In this document: one piece after another, positions 1-11,100 of the stretch | Layout of the letters: each line of letters begins with the position of its first letter | How positions within the stretch are numbered: the first letter of the stretch is position 1 | NCBI GenBank assembly: GCA_002404345.1 | Contig: DHJN01000088.1 | Span: 29,675-43,619 of the forward strand | Reading direction: 5' to 3' | DNA: 13,945 nt | Source: Actinobacteria bacterium UBA4719 | GTDB lineage: Bacteria > Actinomycetota > Actinomycetes > Actinomycetales > Dermatophilaceae | Notes under the pieces: model-generated | Database searches by the model: none | The model's input: the letters and a program-made list of their open reading frames with translations, nothing else | What the model was told of the DNA's origin: nothing | Position numbers and translations under genes: made by a program

Positions 1-609
1 GATGTCGTTGGAGGCGCCGATGTTGATCAGTCGCTGCACGGCTGAGACCAGGGCGGCAGAGTCCGCTCTAGTGCGCGGCTGGAAGCCGGTGACATACCGG
101 TCGCCTCTTTTGCCATTGTCGGCATTCCACGACACCAGGACGGTGTGCGCCCGACCCAGGAGCCTGCCGGCCGTGCCGCGTTCCAGACTCACTCCGAGCA
201 GCCGGGAGCAGGCAACCCGCACGTCGACCGCGCCGTCGCGTTCCCAGCGGACGGTGCTGTCGTCCACCACCATGGTTGCCCGTACGCGCGCGCCCTGGCC
301 AGCCGTGGCGACCCGCTCCTGACGCGAGATGGCCATGGTGGTGCTGAGGTAGGTGCCCTCGACCCAGGCCAGGGTCAGTGCCCGGGGCAGTCCGGGCGCG
401 GTGCTGGGCTCGGCGGTGCTGGGCCCGGAACCGGCGATCTGGCGGCCTGGCGACCCGGTGGCGCTGGTACCGCTGGTGGTGCCCGTGCCTTGAAGGATGC
501 CTGCGGCGGACGCGCTCTTGCGTGGGCGAGGCAGCCACCCGACATACCTCAGGGCGTAGACCACTCCCAGAACGATCAGCAGCACGCCGACTACCCTGGC
601 GCCGGTCAT
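1..609 (-). CDS. Membrane-anchored PH-like/export-type protein downstream of pyrC (3'-truncated by window edge)
   Basis: The reading frame opens with ATG at 609 and stays open to base 1, giving 203 codons with no stop, so the C-terminus lies outside the window. Residues about 6-26 (VVGVLLIVLGVVYALRYVG) form one membrane segment. A low-complexity Ser/Thr/Gly/Pro linker follows to about residue 65. After it comes a soluble, beta-rich region (LTLAWVEGTYLSTTMA...) that probably faces the cytoplasm. The start overlaps the pyrC stop by 4 bases (ATGA), so it is in the pyr operon. In mycobacteria a membrane protein of this type (Rv1382) lies between pyrC and carA; the PH-like assignment rests on that recalled family and on position, not on a search. 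I know of no biochemical function. The gene is real with good confidence; the domain name is less certain. Confidence 0.75.
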   Translation of the reverse strand, partial: MTGARVVGVLLIVLGVVYALRYVGWLPRPRKSASAAGILQGTGTTSGTSATGSPGRQIAGSGPSTAEPSTAPGLPRALTLAWVEGTYLSTTMAISRQERVATAGQGARVRATMVVDDSTVRWERDGAVDVRVACSRLLGVSLERGTAGRLLGRAHTVLVSWNADNGKRGDRYVTGFQPRTRADSAALVSAVQRLINIGASNDI

Positions 610-1907
610 GCCAGTGCTCCCTTCAGGACCGTGGGGAGGCCACGCAGGAGGGTGGCATGAACCGCGCCGGTGAGCTGGCGGCCGTGCCAGGGATTGTTGC
701 GGGACAACGACATTGAGAGGTCTCGGTCCACGGTCACCGTGGCCGACGGGTCGACCAGGGTGAGGTTGGCCGGCTCCCCCACCGCAATCGGTCGGCCATG
801 GCCGGACAACCCCGCGATGCGGGCCGGCCGCATCGACATCACCTGTGCGACACCTGCCCAGTCGAGCAGACCGGAGCCGACCATGACGTCGCTGACGACG
901 CTGAGCGCGGTCTCCAGGCCCAGCATCCCGGGGGCCGCGTCGACGAAGGCATGCTCCTTGTCGTGCCGGGCGTGCGGTGCGTGGTCGGTCGCGACGGCGT
1001 CGATCGTGCCGTCCGCCAGGGCCGCCCGAAGCGCCTCGACATCCTCGCTGGGACGCAGCGGCGGGTTCACCTTGAACGTCGGGTCGTAGCCCGCGAGCAG
1101 GTCTGTGGTCAGCATCAGGTGGTGCGGGGTGACCTCGGAGGTGACCTGGATGCCCTGCGCCTTTGCCCAGCGGATGACCTCGACAGAGCCGGCCGTGGAC
1201 ACGTGGGCGATATGCACTCGCGAGCCGGTATGCCGCGCGAGCATCACGTCGCGGGCGACGATGACCTCCTCGGCGATGCCGGGCCAGCCCGGCAGACCGA
1301 GACGCCCGGACAGCTCGCCCTCGTGGCAACAAGCGTTGTGGTCGGCCAGCTGGGGATCCTGGGCGTGCTGGGACACCACCCCGCCGAAGGCCTTGACGTA
1401 CTCCAGCGCCCGGCGCATCACCCGCGCGTCATGGACACACCTGCCGTCATCCGAGAAGACCCGCACCCGTGCGCGCGATCGAGCCATCAGCCCCAGCTCG
1501 GCAAGCTCCTCGCCTGCGAGCCCTTTGGTGACCGCACCGACCGGCTGGACGTCGACCAGAGCGGCTAACCGGCCGAGGTCGAGAACGCGCTCGGCAGCCT
1601 CTGCGGTGTCGGTGACCGGACTCGTGTTGGCCATGGCCAGGATCGCGGTGAATCCGCCGATCGCCGCTGCAGCCGAACCACTGGCAATCGTCTCGGCATC
1701 CTCACGACCCGGCTCACGCAGGTGGGTGTGCAGATCGACCAGACCCGGCAGCGCGATCAGACCGTCCGCGTCGATGGTCTGGTCGACCTGCTCACTGCCG
1801 GCGCGAGCGTCCTGGATCTTGCCGATCTCGGTGATCACACCATTGCGGATCAGCACGTCCTGGCGGCCCGCACCGACCAGATCGGCTCCCTTGATCAGCA
1901 GGCTCAT
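606..1907 (-). CDS. pyrC: Dihydroorotase (class I)
   Basis: A cytoplasmic zinc amidohydrolase of 433 residues that interconverts N-carbamoyl-L-aspartate and L-dihydroorotate, the third step of UMP synthesis. Metal-site motifs are visible in order: [10 protein letters not shown] (His60, His62), FSDDG (Asp153), SQHAQ (His181), HIAHVST (His232, His235) and ATDHAPH (Asp308). Length and motif spacing match the class I, PyrC/hydantoinase-like enzymes rather than the shorter E. coli class II form. The ATG at 1907 overlaps the pyrB stop by 4 bases, and the stop at 606-608 overlaps the next gene in the same way, so translational coupling is likely. Regulation is expected from the PyrR site upstream of pyrR. 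Residues 188-198, with two adjacent cysteines (HNACCHEG), are slightly unusual but the surrounding motif is intact. Confidence 0.97.
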
Positions 1908-2839
1908 GCGACAGACCCTTCGCCGGCGAACAGGTGGTAGAGCACGGACATCCTCACAGCCACACCGGCGGAGACCTGGTCCAGGACCAGCGACTGGGCA
2001 GCGTCAGCCGCATCCGCGGCAATCTCGAGGCCCCGGTTCATCGGTCCGGGGTGGCAGATGACCGTGTGCTTCTGGAGCGTTCTGAGCCGCTCTCGGGTCA
2101 GGCCGTAGCCGACCGTGTACTCGCGGGCGGTGGGGAAGTAGCCGCCGCTCATCCGCTCGCGCTGGACTCGCAGCATCATCACCGCGTCAACCCCCGGCAG
2201 AACCGCATCGAGGTCGTACGACGTGTCGAAGCCATCGCTCCTGGCCCAGGTCTCGATGCCGCTGGGCATCAGCGTCGGTGGCGCCACGACGGTGACGTGG
2301 GCGCCCAGGGTCTTCAGGCAGATCAGGTTCGAGCGCAGCACCCGGGAGTGCGTCAGGTCACCGACGATGGCCACGTGCAGGCCTTGGAGGTCACCGAGGC
2401 GCTGGCGCATCGAGTAGGCGTCGAGCAGGGCCTGCGTCGGGTGCTCGTGCAGGCCGTCCCCCGCATTGATGACCACCGCGTCGACCCACTGGGCCACCTG
2501 ATGTGCGGCGCCGCTGGCACCGTGCCGGATGACGAGGCCGTCGACCCCCATGGCTGCGACGGTGCGGACGGTGTCGCGCAGGGACTCACCCTTGCTGGTC
2601 GACGACCCCTTGGCCGAGATGTTGATGACGTCAGCCGAGAGCCACTTGCCGGCGATCTCAAAGGAGGACCGGGTGCGGGTGGAGTCCTCGAAGAACAGGT
2701 TCACCACGGTCCGCCCCCGCAGGGTCGGGAGCTTTTTGACCTCACGACGTTGGACATCGTGCATGGTCTCGGCCGTGTCCAGAATCGCCAGGATGCCTTG
2801 CCTGTCAAGGTCGTTCATCGACAGCAGGTGGCGCTTCAC
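1904..2839 (-). CDS. pyrB: Aspartate carbamoyltransferase catalytic subunit
   Basis: Joins carbamoyl phosphate to L-aspartate to make carbamoyl-aspartate, the committed step of pyrimidine synthesis. The 311 residues are the usual length for the catalytic chain. Carbamoyl-phosphate motif [13 protein letters not shown] lies near residues 49-61, the mobile SSTSKGES loop near 79-86, HPTQALLD near 132-139, GDLTHSRV near 160-167 and HPGPMNRG near 265-272. No regulatory-chain gene (pyrI) is present nearby, as usual in Actinobacteria. The start is GTG at 2839, which overlaps the pyrR stop as GTGA; this is the start that gives the conserved N-terminus ([10 protein letters not shown]). Expression is expected to follow PyrR control of the leading gene. 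All catalytic motifs look intact. Confidence 0.97.
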
Positions 2840-3423
2840 CGGTCTCCTCCAGTGATGCGAACCTCGTCGAGGCCATCGTGCTCGGCCAGACGCACCTGCA
2901 CGCGCTCACTGCTGGAGGTCGGCAGGTTCTTGCCCACGTAGTCGGCCCGGATCGGCAGATCCCGGTGGCCGCGGTCGACCAGGACCGCGAGGCGGACAGC
3001 CTGCGGACGGCCGAGCTCGGAGAGGGCATCCATGGCTGCGCGCACCGTGCGGCCGGAGAAGAGCACGTCGTCCACGAGCACGACCGTCTTCTTGTCGATC
3101 CCGGGTGCGGGGATGTCGGTGTGCTCGATCGCCCGGATCGGGTGCCGGCGCAGATCGTCACGATGCATGGTGACGTCGAGGGCGCCGCACGGCACATCTC
3201 GCCCTTCGACCTCGGCCATCACGCGCACGAGGCGACGGGCGAGCGCTACGCCACGGGTCGGAATACCAAGGACGACAAGGTCTTGCGAGCCCTTGTTTCG
3301 TTCGAGGATCTCGTGGGCCACGCGTCGCAGGGCCCGGGAGACGTCACCCGAGCTCATCACGACCCGCGCGGACTCGTCGCCCGAGGAGCCATCGGATGGT
3401 GGAGCAGAGTCTGGACGCGTCAC
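2836..3423 (-). CDS. pyrR: Bifunctional pyr operon RNA-binding regulator / uracil phosphoribosyltransferase-like PyrR
   Basis: PyrR binds a hairpin in pyr mRNA when UMP or UTP is high and represses pyrimidine biosynthesis; many members also convert uracil plus PRPP to UMP. The PRPP-binding signature [13 protein letters not shown] sits at residues 114-126. [13 protein letters not shown] near 53-65 and the C-terminal [12 protein letters not shown] are typical of the family. I start it at GTG 3423, giving 195 residues, because AAGGAGGT at 3439-3432 is a strong ribosome binding site 8 bases upstream. The in-frame GTG at 3450, which would make 204 residues, lies upstream of that site and inside the predicted PyrR-binding loop. 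An internal ATG at residue 23 is possible but has weaker support. The gene leads the pyr block and overlaps pyrB by 4 bases. Confidence 0.95.
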
Positions 3424-3431
3424 AGCGCCGG

Positions 3432-3439
3432 ACCTCCTT
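3432..3439 (-). promoter_or_regulatory. Strong ribosome binding site of pyrR
   Basis: On the minus strand the bases read AAGGAGGT, a near-perfect complement to the 16S rRNA tail, 8 bases before GTG 3423. It decides the pyrR start. Its AAGGA part can pair with UCCUU at 3469-3465, so it is a plausible point of repression. Confidence 0.8.
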
Positions 3440-3469
3440 CCCCGCCTCACCGGACGGGTCGTTAAAGGA
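3435..3469 (-). promoter_or_regulatory. PyrR-binding RNA hairpin sequestering the pyrR ribosome binding site
   Basis: Seen directly: the RNA from 3456 to 3443 reads CGUCCGGUGAGGCG. The known PyrR loop consensus is ARUCCNGNGAGGYU. All fixed positions match except the outermost A-U pair, which is replaced by C-G, a compensatory change. The fold is an upper stem CCCG/CGGG (3458-3455 with 3444-3441), a bulged U3454, a CC/GG pair, and a GGUGA loop. Below an asymmetric internal loop, UCCUU (3469-3465) pairs with AAGGA (3439-3435), which is the Shine-Dalgarno core. Known: in Mycobacterium smegmatis PyrR represses pyr genes at translation. Inferred: the same mechanism works here, since no intrinsic terminator is seen between this hairpin and the start codon. 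Confidence 0.8.
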
Positions 3470-3483
3470 TGTCGATCCCTGCG

Positions 3484-3489
3484 ATCCTA
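3484..3489 (-). promoter_or_regulatory. Candidate -10 element of the pyrR promoter
   Basis: TAGGAT on the minus strand fits the actinobacterial TANNNT -10 box. It would start RNA near 3477, giving a leader of about 55 bases that contains the whole PyrR hairpin. No clear -35 hexamer is visible. A GAGAG/CTCTC inverted repeat (3509-3505 with 3497-3493) lies just upstream, in the -35 to -10 spacer region. Confidence 0.45.
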
Positions 3490-3543
3490 CCTGAGAGCTG
3501 GCATCTCTCGGGAACGCGGCGAGGTTCACGCAGGGCAATGCTC

Positions 3544-3589
3544 AAAAGCCGCCGCAGGCAGAGCAGTCGGCGCGACGCATGCGGCCGGC
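3544..3589 (-). terminator. Possible weak terminator after nusB
   Basis: Minus-strand GCCGGCCGC (3589-3581) can pair with GCGGCGGC (3555-3548), making an 8-bp stem with one bulged G, followed at once by TTTT. The loop is long at 25 bases, so efficiency is doubtful. It lies about 20 bases after the nusB stop and about 55 bases before the candidate pyrR -10 box, where a boundary would make sense. Confidence 0.35.
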
Positions 3590-3609
3590 ATACCGCCTGC
3601 TCGTCCGGG

Positions 3610-4023
3610 TCAGATCAGGGTCGGCTTGACCTCGGCGAGCCTGGCCAACAGCCCGTTGACGAAGGCCGGCGAGTCATCGGTGGACAGCGAGGTCGCCAGT
3701 GCAACCGCCTCGGAGATGGCAACCCCGTCGGGGACCGCTTCGCTGTAGACAACCTCCCAGGCACCGATACGCAGGATTGCCCGGTCGACGGCCGGCATGC
3801 GTTCGATCGTCCAGCCCTGACTGTAGGTCGCCAGCAGCTCGTTGATCTGGTTCCACCTGGCGACCACGCCCCGGACGATCTCGACCGTGTAGTCGTTCAG
3901 CGAGTGTTGCGTCGCCGGCTTCGCGATCCGCTCCGTCAGGAGCGTGTCCGCGTTCACACCTCGCTGCTCGGCCTCGAACAGGAGGTCGAGCGCGCGCTTG
4001 CGCGCCTTGGATCGTGCGGACAC
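3610..4023 (-). CDS. nusB: Transcription antitermination factor NusB
   Basis: NusB binds BoxA RNA with NusE (ribosomal protein S10) and supports antitermination on rRNA operons. The all-helical protein of 137 residues has the family size. Visible features are the basic N-terminal helix SARSKARKRALDLLFEAE, the middle segment IERMPAVDRAILRIGAWEV near residues 74-92, and the C-terminal SPAFVNGLLARLAE. I start it at GTG 4023, one base after the efp stop (TGA-G-GTG). The same frame stays open upstream to 4437, but that part overlaps efp and encodes Thr/Arg/Ser-rich out-of-frame sequence. It is probably co-transcribed with efp. In Streptomyces bldD lies between nusB and pyrR; here only a short intergenic region does. 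Confidence 0.95.
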   Translation of the reverse strand: MSARSKARKRALDLLFEAEQRGVNADTLLTERIAKPATQHSLNDYTVEIVRGVVARWNQINELLATYSQGWTIERMPAVDRAILRIGAWEVVYSEAVPDGVAISEAVALATSLSTDDSPAFVNGLLARLAEVKPTLI

Positions 4024-8414: not shown

Positions 8415-9119
8415 TCAACCAGTCATGACACGGACCGGAAACATCAACGCCACCCACGCGCCCAGAATCATCCAGGGGCCAAAAGCAATGTGCGATGAAC
8501 GGCCCGCGCGCCCCGCCAGAAGCAGAATCAGGGCAACGACGCCACCGATGATGAAGGCCGCGAAAACCGAGACGATCACCGAGCCCCAGCCCAGCCAACC
8601 CAACGACAACCCCAGCACGCCGGCGAGCTTCACGTCGCCGAATCCCAGTCCCCCACCCCCGGGCGAGACCAGAGCCAACACGAGATAGCCCACAAAGAGC
8701 ACAACCCCGGCCAGCACGCCCCGCAGCAGCCAACCCCACTGGGCCGTCACCACGGTGGGCACGAGCAACAGCACGAACCCGATCGGGTACGAGGGCAGCA
8801 CGATCAGGTCTGGCAACCGGTGGACGTCGAGGTCGATGAGTGCGAGCGCCGCACCGACGGCACCCAGGTAGAGGTATGCCGGGAGCAGGGACCACTGCGC
8901 GTAGCCACCAAAGCGGAACGTCAGCGTCGCCCAGGCGAGGGCCACGGCGAGCACCAGCCACGATGTATGCCTTGGTAAGGATCGGTCCCGCTCGTCGGGG
9001 CGCCGGTAGCTCGCGTCACCCAGTGACCTGGTCAGCCATACGCCCACGCCGACACCCAGGCCGGCCAGCACGGCAACTGCCCACCATGGGGCGGCACCCT
9101 GCGGGAGCACCAAGGTCAT
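8415..9119 (-). CDS. Short A24-family prepilin peptidase (membrane aspartate protease)
   Basis: An integral membrane protease of the type IV prepilin peptidase family, which cuts leader peptides from pilin-like proteins at the membrane. The 234 residues contain about seven hydrophobic segments. The two catalytic aspartates are visible: Asp96 in [12 protein letters not shown] and Asp162 in the GFGDVK motif (GxGD class). The N-terminal cytoplasmic methyltransferase domain with its CxxC pairs is absent, so it is a peptidase-only form, like TadV or Rv2551c of Mycobacterium tuberculosis, which is also next to aroE. No pilin or tad genes are visible here, so the substrate is unknown. It overlaps aroE by 4 bases (ATGA). 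The gene is clear; a specific symbol is not justified. Confidence 0.92.
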
Positions 9120-10045
9120 CGCGACTCCATCGCAGCCAGCCCGGCGGCCCGCATCGCCTCAACGGGTGCACGCAGGCCGGTCATCAGGTGCACCTGTTCG
9201 GCCGCCTGATGGACCAACATCTCGAACCCGGACACCACGCTTGCCCCCGCTTCCTGAAAGGTCCGCGCCAGCGGCGTCGGCCAACCGGCGTAGACCACGT
9301 CCAGCAGGAGGTGATCCGGTAACCGCGAACCGTGCGGGAGCACCCCGCCCATCAGGTTGTTCCCCAACGTGGCGGTCGCAGGCAGCGCGTTCGCGGGCAG
9401 CGTGCTGACGACCACCCGCGCGTCGCCCAGCCGGTCCATGAGCTGACTGAGCGGACTGAGCTGACTGAGTTGACTGACTTGACTGACTTGACTGACTTGA
9501 CTGACCTGACCCAACTCGATCACATCGACCTCGAGTCCGGCGCGATGCGCCTGGTCCAGCGTCTCCTGCCGCGCCGCCGAGCGCACCGCGAAAGTCACCT
9601 TCGCACATCCCAGGGCGGCCAGCGCCGCCACGACGGACCGCGCCGTGGCTCCCGAGCCGAGCACCACCGAGCTGGCCACCTGCTCACATCCGGCCTCACG
9701 CAAAGCCTGCGAAACGCCATACACGTCGGTGTTGTCACCGCTCCAGCCACCGTCTGGGCGGCGGACCAGGGTGTTGATGGCACCGACCTCGCGAGCCAGC
9801 TCCGAGACCTCGTCGGCGACCTCGAACGCGGCTTCCTTCAAGGGCATTGTCAGCGACAGGCCCGCCCACTGCGGGCCCAGCCCAGTCACGAACCCGCGCA
9901 GCGCCGGCTCCTGCACGTCATGTGCGCCATAGTGCCAGTCGCGCAGACCCAGGGCGCGGTATGCAGCCTGGTGCAGCACCGGGGAAAGGGAGTGGCTGAT
10001 GGGCGATCCGAGGACGGCGGCGCGCCGACTGGCCGCGGTCAGCAC
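9116..10045 (-). CDS. aroE: Shikimate 5-dehydrogenase with an internal (V/L)SQ repeat
   Basis: Reduces 3-dehydroshikimate to shikimate with NADPH, step 4 of the shikimate pathway. From GTG 10045 it has 309 residues. Shikimate-site motifs are SHSLSP (Ser19, Ser21), the catalytic Lys70 in LTMPLKEA, Asn91 and Asp107 in GDNTDVYG. The NADP loop is VLGSGATARS at 128-137. The C-terminal EMLVHQAAEQVHLMTG is typical. Residues 179-202 are a 24-residue repeat, eight triplets mostly V/L-S-Q, that I would not expect in the family; without it the length is an ordinary 285. I chose GTG 10045 because the next homologous block starts 9 residues later; it overlaps mltG by 7 bases. In-frame starts at 10066, 10069 and 10165 are less likely. 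Confidence 0.93.
   Translation of the reverse strand: MLTAASRRAAVLGSPISHSLSPVLHQAAYRALGLRDWHYGAHDVQEPALRGFVTGLGPQWAGLSLTMPLKEAAFEVADEVSELAREVGAINTLVRRPDGGWSGDNTDVYGVSQALREAGCEQVASSVVLGSGATARSVVAALAALGCAKVTFAVRSAARQETLDQAHRAGLEVDVIELGQVSQVSQVSQVSQLSQLSPLSQLMDRLGDARVVVSTLPANALPATATLGNNLMGGVLPHGSRLPDHLLLDVVYAGWPTPLARTFQEAGASVVSGFEMLVHQAAEQVHLMTGLRAPVEAMRAAGLAAMESR
9440..9511. repeat. 9-bp tandem repeat inside aroE (eight units)
   Basis: Eight consecutive 9-base units on the plus strand resemble GAS(Y/G)TGACT; three neighbouring units (9476-9502) are identical as GACTTGACT. Since the unit is three codons, changes in copy number keep the aroE frame. The encoded repeat is GQV-SQV-SQV-SQV-SQL-SQL-SPL-SQL. 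Confidence 0.92.
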
Positions 10046-11100
10046 TGGCCCGGATGGGTCGAGCACCACTTCAGGAACAGCCTCTCGTCGGCCACCTGAC
10101 CGGATGCGTCGACGGCGAACCTGGTATGTCCCGTCTTGGGGTTCACCACAACGAAGTACAGCCACCGCCCGGGTGTCGGGTGGGCGGCGGCCTGCATGGC
10201 TGACAGCCCGGGACTGTCGATGGGGCCCGGTGGAAGAGCGCCGGCCAGATAGGTGTTGTAGGGGCTCCGGATACGCCTGTCGAGCTTGGTCGGGCCCGCC
10301 TTGCCGCGACGGTGCGAGGCGAACCGAACGGTCGAGTCCAGCTGCAGCGGCATCGCCCTGGCGAGGCGGTTGCCGATGACCCGGGCCACCTTCGGGCCAT
10401 CGGATCTTGCGCTGGCCTCAGCCTCCACGATGCTCGCGATGGTCAGCACCCGCTGCATCTGGTCACGGGTCACACCGAGCTTGCGGAGCTCCACGAGGGA
10501 CCTTGCCACCATCGTGTGCAGCTGCTGCGCCGCAGTGGCATCCGCTGCGAACTCGTAGGTCGATGGGAACAGGTATCCCTGCGGGTTCCCCTTGGCCGAG
10601 CCGGGCAGACCCAGCACCGCATGGTTCTTCAACGCCACCTTATAGTCGGCGAGCGATCTGCCGGTGGCGGCGGAAAGTGCGCTGATGATCTCTGAGGTCC
10701 ACATACCCGCGCGGATCGTGACCCGGGGAACCTTGCGGTTGACCGGGTCCAGCAACATGGCCAGTGCCGACACCGCGCTCATGTTGGCGTGCAGCGCGTA
10801 GGTGCCCGGCTGGATTGATCCGGACTGCGGGTTGTCGGCAGCAGCATCGCCGAACGCCCTGGCCGTCACGACGTCCGACTTGTCCAGGGCCGCGCCGATG
10901 GTGCGGCTGGAGTCCCCGCCATGCACCACGACGAACACAGCGCCCGAGCCGCCCCCGGTGTCGTCGTTGTTCTCGGCACGACTGATGACCAGAGCCCACA
11001 GCACAGAGACCGCGGCAGCCCCGGTGCCGGCGACCAGACCCAGGGCAACCAGCAGCGCGATCAGCCGCCAGGTACGCCCGCCACGTCGACGCCAGCTCAT
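10039..11100 (-). CDS. mltG: Endolytic murein transglycosylase MltG (YceG-like)
   Basis: An inner-membrane lytic transglycosylase that cuts nascent glycan strands and is thought to end peptidoglycan polymerisation. Of 353 residues, 1-12 are basic, 13-40 form one membrane helix, and the rest is outside the cell. After a LysM-like part comes QGYLFPSTYEF at 174-184, LTIASIVEAEA at 219-229 with the catalytic Glu226, and the substrate-groove segment SPYNTYLAGALPPGPIDSPG. LYFVVVNPKTGHTRF closes the fold. The usual EGYLFPDTY here reads QGYLFPSTY, a mild departure. The ATG overlaps the ruvX stop by 4 bases, and its own stop overlaps aroE. The ruvX-mltG-aroE order is widespread in Actinobacteria. Confidence 0.95.
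   Translation of the reverse strand: MSWRRRGGRTWRLIALLVALGLVAGTGAAAVSVLWALVISRAENNDDTGGGSGAVFVVVHGGDSSRTIGAALDKSDVVTARAFGDAAADNPQSGSIQPGTYALHANMSAVSALAMLLDPVNRKVPRVTIRAGMWTSEIISALSAATGRSLADYKVALKNHAVLGLPGSAKGNPQGYLFPSTYEFAADATAAQQLHTMVARSLVELRKLGVTRDQMQRVLTIASIVEAEASARSDGPKVARVIGNRLARAMPLQLDSTVRFASHRRGKAGPTKLDRRIRSPYNTYLAGALPPGPIDSPGLSAMQAAAHPTPGRWLYFVVVNPKTGHTRFAVDASGQVADERLFLKWCSTHPGQC

Follow-up and report, generated by a model that had tools for sequence, protein, structure and literature searches.

The leader of the pyrR operon in the stretch of DNA analyzed here (13,945 nt of a Dermatophilaceae contig, hereafter the window) carries a PyrR-type hairpin whose lower stem overlaps the Shine-Dalgarno sequence (SD) of pyrR, and masking of this SD by a PyrR-stabilized fold is very probably the best explanation of the leader. 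When UMP is plentiful, PyrR-UMP would bind the upper stem-loop and hold the hairpin closed, hiding the SD and barring ribosomes from starting pyrR, while without PyrR the lower stem would be weak enough for ribosomes to open. The block on pyrR would also lower expression of pyrB, pyrC and a fourth gene through 4-nt stop/start overlaps, with the reservation that pyrB carries its own SD-like stretch (GGAGGAG). We infer PyrR binding, UMP dependence and repression from the precedent of Mycobacterium smegmatis, and translational coupling of the operon genes and the transcription start from features of the leader and the gene junctions.

The coordinates of the relevant features are collected in Table 1. 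According to the NCBIfam assignments, pyrR is the first gene of the operon and thus lies inside the unit that it is proposed to control. The start of each following gene overlaps the stop of the preceding one, as GUGA for pyrB (2839-2836) and as AUGA for both pyrC (1907-1904) and the fourth gene (609-606). The hairpin is housed in a 186-nt gap on the minus strand, between the stop of nusB at 3610 and the start of pyrR at 3423. The source genome is a draft of 275 contigs that is 87% complete. Elsewhere in the window, a 9-nt repeat occurs eight times at 9439-9510, within an ORF on the minus strand (9116-10165) whose protein shows SQV/SQL runs.

Table 1. Features of the pyrR operon and its leader in the window.
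Feature	Position	Strand	Basis and remarks
pyrR	2836..3423	minus	GUG start, 195 aa; NCBIfam NF003547, 277.2 bits (cut-off 230)
pyrR SD, AAGGAGGU	3432..3439	minus	8 nt before GUG; read from sequence
pyrB (aspartate carbamoyltransferase)	1904..2839	minus	NF002032, 395.1 bits
pyrC (dihydroorotase)	606..1907	minus	NF006836, 678.6 bits
Fourth gene, PH-like domain	1..609	minus	PF25362 (Pfam), 65 bits; extends past window end
PyrR-type hairpin, complete	RNA 3470-3433	minus	Sequence and fold
Lower stem, 5′ arm UCCUUU	3469-3464	minus	Fold; six lower pairs near-invariant in 91 leaders picked by loop only
Bulge AACGA, 5 nt, 5′ side	3463-3459	minus	Fold; leading AA conserved
Upper stem and loop, PyrR consensus CGUCCGGUGAGGCG at 3456-3443	3458-3441	minus	Loop pattern, pair covariation
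Lower stem, 3′ arm GAAGGA, overlaps SD	3440-3435	minus	Fold
Putative -10 element TAGGAT	3484..3489	minus	TANNNT spacing conserved among relatives

The hairpin had been proposed in an earlier sequence-only reading, and its sequence and coordinates were correct on re-reading. The loop region fits the consensus quoted there, ARUCCNGNGAGGYU, at all fixed positions save the outer A-U pair, which is C3456-G3443 here, and UCCUU (3469-3465) does face AAGGA (3439-3435), the core of the pyrR SD, with both arms paired in the fold. The internal loop that had been placed above the lower stem is not two-sided in the fold, which shows a bulge on the 5′ side only. The upper stem is formed by CCCGUC (3458-3453) and GGCGGG (3446-3441) with the loop CGGUGA between them, and positions 3470-3433 fold at -14.4 kcal/mol with 6 + 6 pairs. 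Folding the leader, as that reading had proposed, gave the hairpin in the 38-nt piece and in the minimum-energy folds of the 58-, 78- and 91-nt pieces, and not in that of the 98-nt piece. Compared with shuffled sequences, neither the hairpin nor the leader was clearly more stable than expected (z = -1.05 for the 38-nt hairpin, with 27 of 200 shuffles folding equally well; z = +0.57 for the 78-nt leader). The alignment to the Rfam PyrR family (RF00515) spans the whole hairpin including loop, bulge and lower stem, at a score of 25.2 bits (E = 0.25) that lies below the gathering score of 54. Since 0.67 matches to TCCNGNGAGGY are expected by chance in the window and one was found, the loop match is insignificant when taken alone; a chance match was rejected on the basis of its position before the pyrR start and its conservation in relatives.

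This conservation was assessed in 110 pyrR loci gathered via the PyrR protein without use of the loop, a set that includes the window itself and some duplicates. Within the family, 58 genomes had a PyrR match, and 30 loci were drawn from these; the other 80 were the best 80 named of 492, among which Nocardioides and Intrasporangium kin were numerous. Of 111 leaders, 109 matched the strict loop pattern close to where pyrR begins, and the refuting condition set in the earlier reading, a lack of conservation among close relatives, was thus far from being the case; the two misses (L092 and L101) both carry GAGAC, with the pair retained. The relaxed loop pattern, followed at 10-24 nt by a start codon in frame, is present in all 110 loci, and 109 of them have CCTT 5′ of the loop together with A[AG]GG 3′ of it. 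The locus that lacks CCTT, from Agrococcus (L098), shows an insertion that separates loop and SD, as well as another, partial loop, CCCAGAGAGGCAGG. Another locus (L070) lies on a contig labelled as a Spirochaetaceae MAG, yet its pyrR and leader are of actinobacterial type, which probably reflects a binning error.

A covariance search of pyrR leaders, likewise suggested at the outset, was carried out with a model (R1) of 91 distinct leaders, whose training alignment (A1) was chosen by the loop pattern, so that the loop letters there are present by construction and are not evidence. On the genome of the window, R1 found this site with an E-value of 1.7e-19; the next-best match had an E-value of 1.66, and further PyrR sites in this genome were rejected on that basis. 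Of the 396 genomes sampled across the phylum, 208 had R1 matches at E ≤ 0.01; counted by eye, these included 60/60 of the genomes belonging to the class of the window, a few of which had supplied rows to the model. RF00515, run on 100 genomes, reached its cut-off in 7 and E ≤ 0.01 in 47, with no match at the latter threshold in any of the 9 genomes of the class within that set, and the element of this class therefore goes unannotated by Rfam.

Among the 91 leaders, the two helices are paired in 94.3 and 89.5% of cells and the whole structure in 92.4%, compared with 50-63% when the partners are slid by 1-3 columns. In 169 distinct leaders from the phylum, two upper pairs are uninformative because the search pattern fixes them, but the two pattern-free pairs adjoining the loop are standard in 169/169 and the pair beneath these in 162/169. 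Three upper-stem pairs covary phylum-wide: the outer loop pair is G-C in 74, C-G in 50 and A-U in 41 of the 169 leaders, and the other two are found as U-G (145), U-A (11), C-G (11) and G-C (2) and as C-G (101), U-A (32) and G-C (20), respectively. The change from A-U to C-G at the outer pair does keep pairing, as had been pointed out, but C-G is also the common state of the kin (83 of the 91 close leaders, the other 8 having U-A) and falls within the covariation of the phylum. At its base, the upper stem has a weak sixth pair (paired in 24/79 rows), and the RNAalifold consensus contained only five upper pairs, with the lower stem absent. For the six pairs of the lower stem, the number of rows with a standard pair ranges from 85 to 91 of 91; being near-invariant, this stem can be neither tested nor confirmed by covariation. 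In 163/169 phylum leaders CCUUU occurs together with A[AG]GG, but there the two were searched as motifs and pair by construction. A further lengthening of this stem by GAC/GUC is unpaired in 12, 19 and 7 of 91 rows at its three pairs.

Because the RF00515 consensus also contains the lower stem, comparison of the sequences indicates that this stem is a part of the PyrR hairpin in general and that the SD lies in a pre-existing arm. The proposed pairing of the lower stem with the SD is supported by the fold and by the presence of both arms in 109/110 loci. The presence of UCCUU and AAGGA in the Rfam consensus, where AAGGA need not be an SD, also speaks for another reading, in which bound PyrR sterically blocks the ribosome and the pairing of UCCUU with the SD serves only to shape the target that PyrR recognizes. 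Predicted opening costs bear on this as well. With the 5′ arm changed to its complement, the SD was predicted to open at lower cost in 91/102 leaders (median from 5.35 to 3.72 kcal/mol), while in the window the cost of 3.97 kcal/mol changed to 3.20 with the arm complemented and to 3.76 with it shuffled, a small predicted effect that would suit a steric block. By this estimate the free hairpin would be a weak lock, as a switch operated by PyrR would need. We consider the purely steric account rather unlikely, and it is compatible with SD masking, from which it differs in physics more than in outcome.

Transcription probably begins close to the hairpin. The motif TANNNT occurs 21-23 nt upstream of CCTT in 92/110 loci, compared with at most 2/110 in ten control windows further upstream, and this near-fixed spacing suggests a start about 10 nt upstream of the hairpin, near 3478-3475; no match to a sigma-70 two-hexamer promoter was found. 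A start so close to the hairpin would leave little room for a competing upstream arm. The sequence-only reading had described a switch without an attenuator terminator, and no terminator-like site was found at 3380-3620, on which ground attenuation in the window was rejected; none was detected in the 37/37 leaders of the class that were read. There is also no leader ORF between the hairpin and pyrR, whose GUG is the sole start codon 8-28 nt past the loop (leader L111). The negative terminator results weigh against PyrR causing termination in or just after the leader, either at an unseen attenuator or through Rho once pyrR is untranslated. Leaders that combine a PyrR loop with a terminator do exist in other classes of the phylum, and the Rho-dependent loss of untranslated mRNA, a general phenomenon, may add to the effect of SD masking, but as the main explanation termination is improbable. 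A passive hairpin or thermosensor that tunes translation without PyrR is the least credible account, since although the hairpin is able to form unaided (a 38-nt element at the folding energy given above), its unpaired loop letters are kept in 109/111 leaders while the stem letters covary, which points to protein contact, and the element precedes pyrR throughout, as well as carA in one genome.

PyrR-dependent translational repression of the pyr operon was reportedly described in M. smegmatis by Fields and Switzer in 2007, with pyrR within the operon, a PyrR loop at the pyrR SD and no attenuator. The window shares all three features (no attenuator having been found in it), and we found no difference in kind, the window representing another family of the same class. 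By this comparison its switch is of an already known kind, the translational repression by PyrR of the M. smegmatis type. The members of RF00515 are mostly attenuators. With those of the Bacillus subtilis type the window shares the hairpin itself (lower stem, 5′ bulge, upper stem and loop), while it differs from them in having no detected antiterminator or terminator and in its sub-threshold RF00515 score. For the pyr leader of Thermus ZO5, Van de Casteele et al. in 1997 are said to have proposed that PyrR acts through a ribosome on the leader, whose translation prevents the terminator. The window has neither a leader ORF nor a terminator, but such a translated leader with a terminator resembles what we observed in other classes of its phylum. 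The B12 riboswitch of M. tuberculosis ppe2 is described with a uORF coupled to the gene by an AUGA overlap (PMC11260477). This riboswitch is like the leader-ORF relatives considered below in having a uORF under a leader element and AUGA coupling, and unlike the window in that its ligand is B12 rather than a protein (PyrR, as proposed) and in that the window is without a uORF.

We classified leaders across the phylum into layouts, the names of which were coined in this analysis. PyrR was found in 384 of the 396 sampled genomes, and leaders were read in 210 (37 of the window's class and 173 of other classes). The sample is non-random, some leaders having been chosen as model matches and others as best PyrR matches. 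All 37 class leaders, mostly from top R1 matches, are direct, the pyrR SD itself lying in the hairpin. In other classes 38/173 are direct and 9/173 doubtful; these nine, from 47 first called direct, comprise eight that have a terminator too and one with a poorly placed start, and for five leaders (G183, G383, G175, G223 and G245) the evidence suggests instead an ORF that runs in frame across a terminator. In 41/173 the stop of a leader ORF abuts or overlaps the start of pyrR (by 0, 1 or 4 nt); 19 of these leaders have a terminator and 22 have none detected. In another 12/173 a leader ORF ends near, not at, the pyrR start. A terminator without an ORF reaching pyrR was found in 24/173, and 16/173 are without a layout call. 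The loop pattern was absent in 33/173 genomes of other classes (12 in family f28 and 11 in f42); of 110 loci from other lineages that were selected on PyrR only, 78 have the relaxed pattern. Six f42 leaders (L289, L290, L292, L294, L296 and L297) show by eye a divergent loop resembling GUACGAGAUAC, followed by terminator-like runs, and this loop is possibly a variant PyrR site missed by the pattern.

We compared the frequency of stop/start overlaps with chance in the 88 non-direct leaders that had a usable pyrR start (5/93 were dropped). An overlap of 1 or 4 nt was present in 40 of them, from 12 families, whereas 300 shuffles of the leaders averaged 7.5 (sd 2.3), with a maximum of 15; the 40 include non-independent relatives from the same family, with f17 and f18 contributing 8 each, and one (G149) that was scored from a wrong loop, although its alternative reading (L203) also ends in AUGA at the pyrR start. 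This excess makes translation of the leader ORF and its coupling to pyrR very probable, as exemplified by L193, L197, L202 and L204. In several leaders (L186, L193, L197, L199, L200, L202, L230 and others) the ORF begins immediately past the hairpin SD, crosses a terminator-like hairpin and overlaps the pyrR start. In three f20 leaders (L179, L181 and L184) inspection by eye showed a GC-rich hairpin lacking a U-run within the opening codons of pyrR, at the place that the terminator occupies in other families. Among leaders with terminators, an antiterminator duplex with z < -1.65 was found in 7/19 leaders of group T, 4/29 of group L+T and 1/5 of a third group, rough figures based on single-letter shuffles. 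None of 14 L+T leaders in f11, f17, f22, f49, f70 and f74 showed antiterminator pairing beyond shuffles, a result that fits a ribosome acting as antiterminator, as was reportedly proposed for Thermus. Genome G412 has a second hairpin of PyrR type (L233, 1600-1440, minus strand), which precedes carA, with a leader ORF of 6 codons (MFETLR) that has an AUGA overlap with the carA start; this carA is a 193-aa piece that scores 169.2 bits with PF00988 (cut-off 27) and 204.3 bits with TIGR01368, below the full-length cut-off of the latter.

The direct switch of the window may derive from a leader-ORF switch by reduction or fusion, because layouts are mixed within three families and start distances overlap. 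In f11, 6/11 leaders have an ORF and a terminator, and in G114 the ORF is fused in frame to PyrR; f18 has eight coupled ORFs and two pyrR starts at the hairpin SD; and f23 has one leader with a coupled ORF and three with the pyrR start at the hairpin SD. Leader ORFs start mostly 15-18 nt past the loop and direct pyrR genes of other classes mostly 15-17 nt, while direct starts in the window's class are mostly 19-23 nt past it. A PyrR tree (121 rows, quick method) required 10 or more changes between the direct layout and the rest, but it is unrooted and some of the direct labels are false, so that the direction of layout change is unproven. We tentatively put forward, at somewhat less than even chances, a reading in which the hairpin SD in Actinomycetota first served a leader ORF. 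A ribosome on this ORF would have kept an intrinsic terminator open and then passed to pyrR at AUGA, GUGA or UGAUG, so that PyrR, by hiding a single SD, shut both; direct control would have arisen several times by loss of the terminator and then fusion or deletion of the ORF, and leader peptide would make up part of the variable N-terminal extension that many actinomycete PyrR proteins carry. Among the matches listed, titles and abstracts of the open-access literature contain no description of leader ORFs controlled by PyrR in Actinomycetota; subscription papers lie mostly outside that coverage.

To our knowledge, translational repression by PyrR is known from one Mycobacterium, and the present analysis would extend this mechanism to what looks like a whole class, in which the element is missed by the standard RNA library, both in the window and in all 9 class genomes tested. 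Four layouts of the one hairpin appear to occur in a single phylum, namely a terminator alone, a leader ORF through a terminator, an ORF coupled to pyrR and direct masking of the SD. With them, the passage between control of transcription and control of translation can be followed step by step and tested in reporters.
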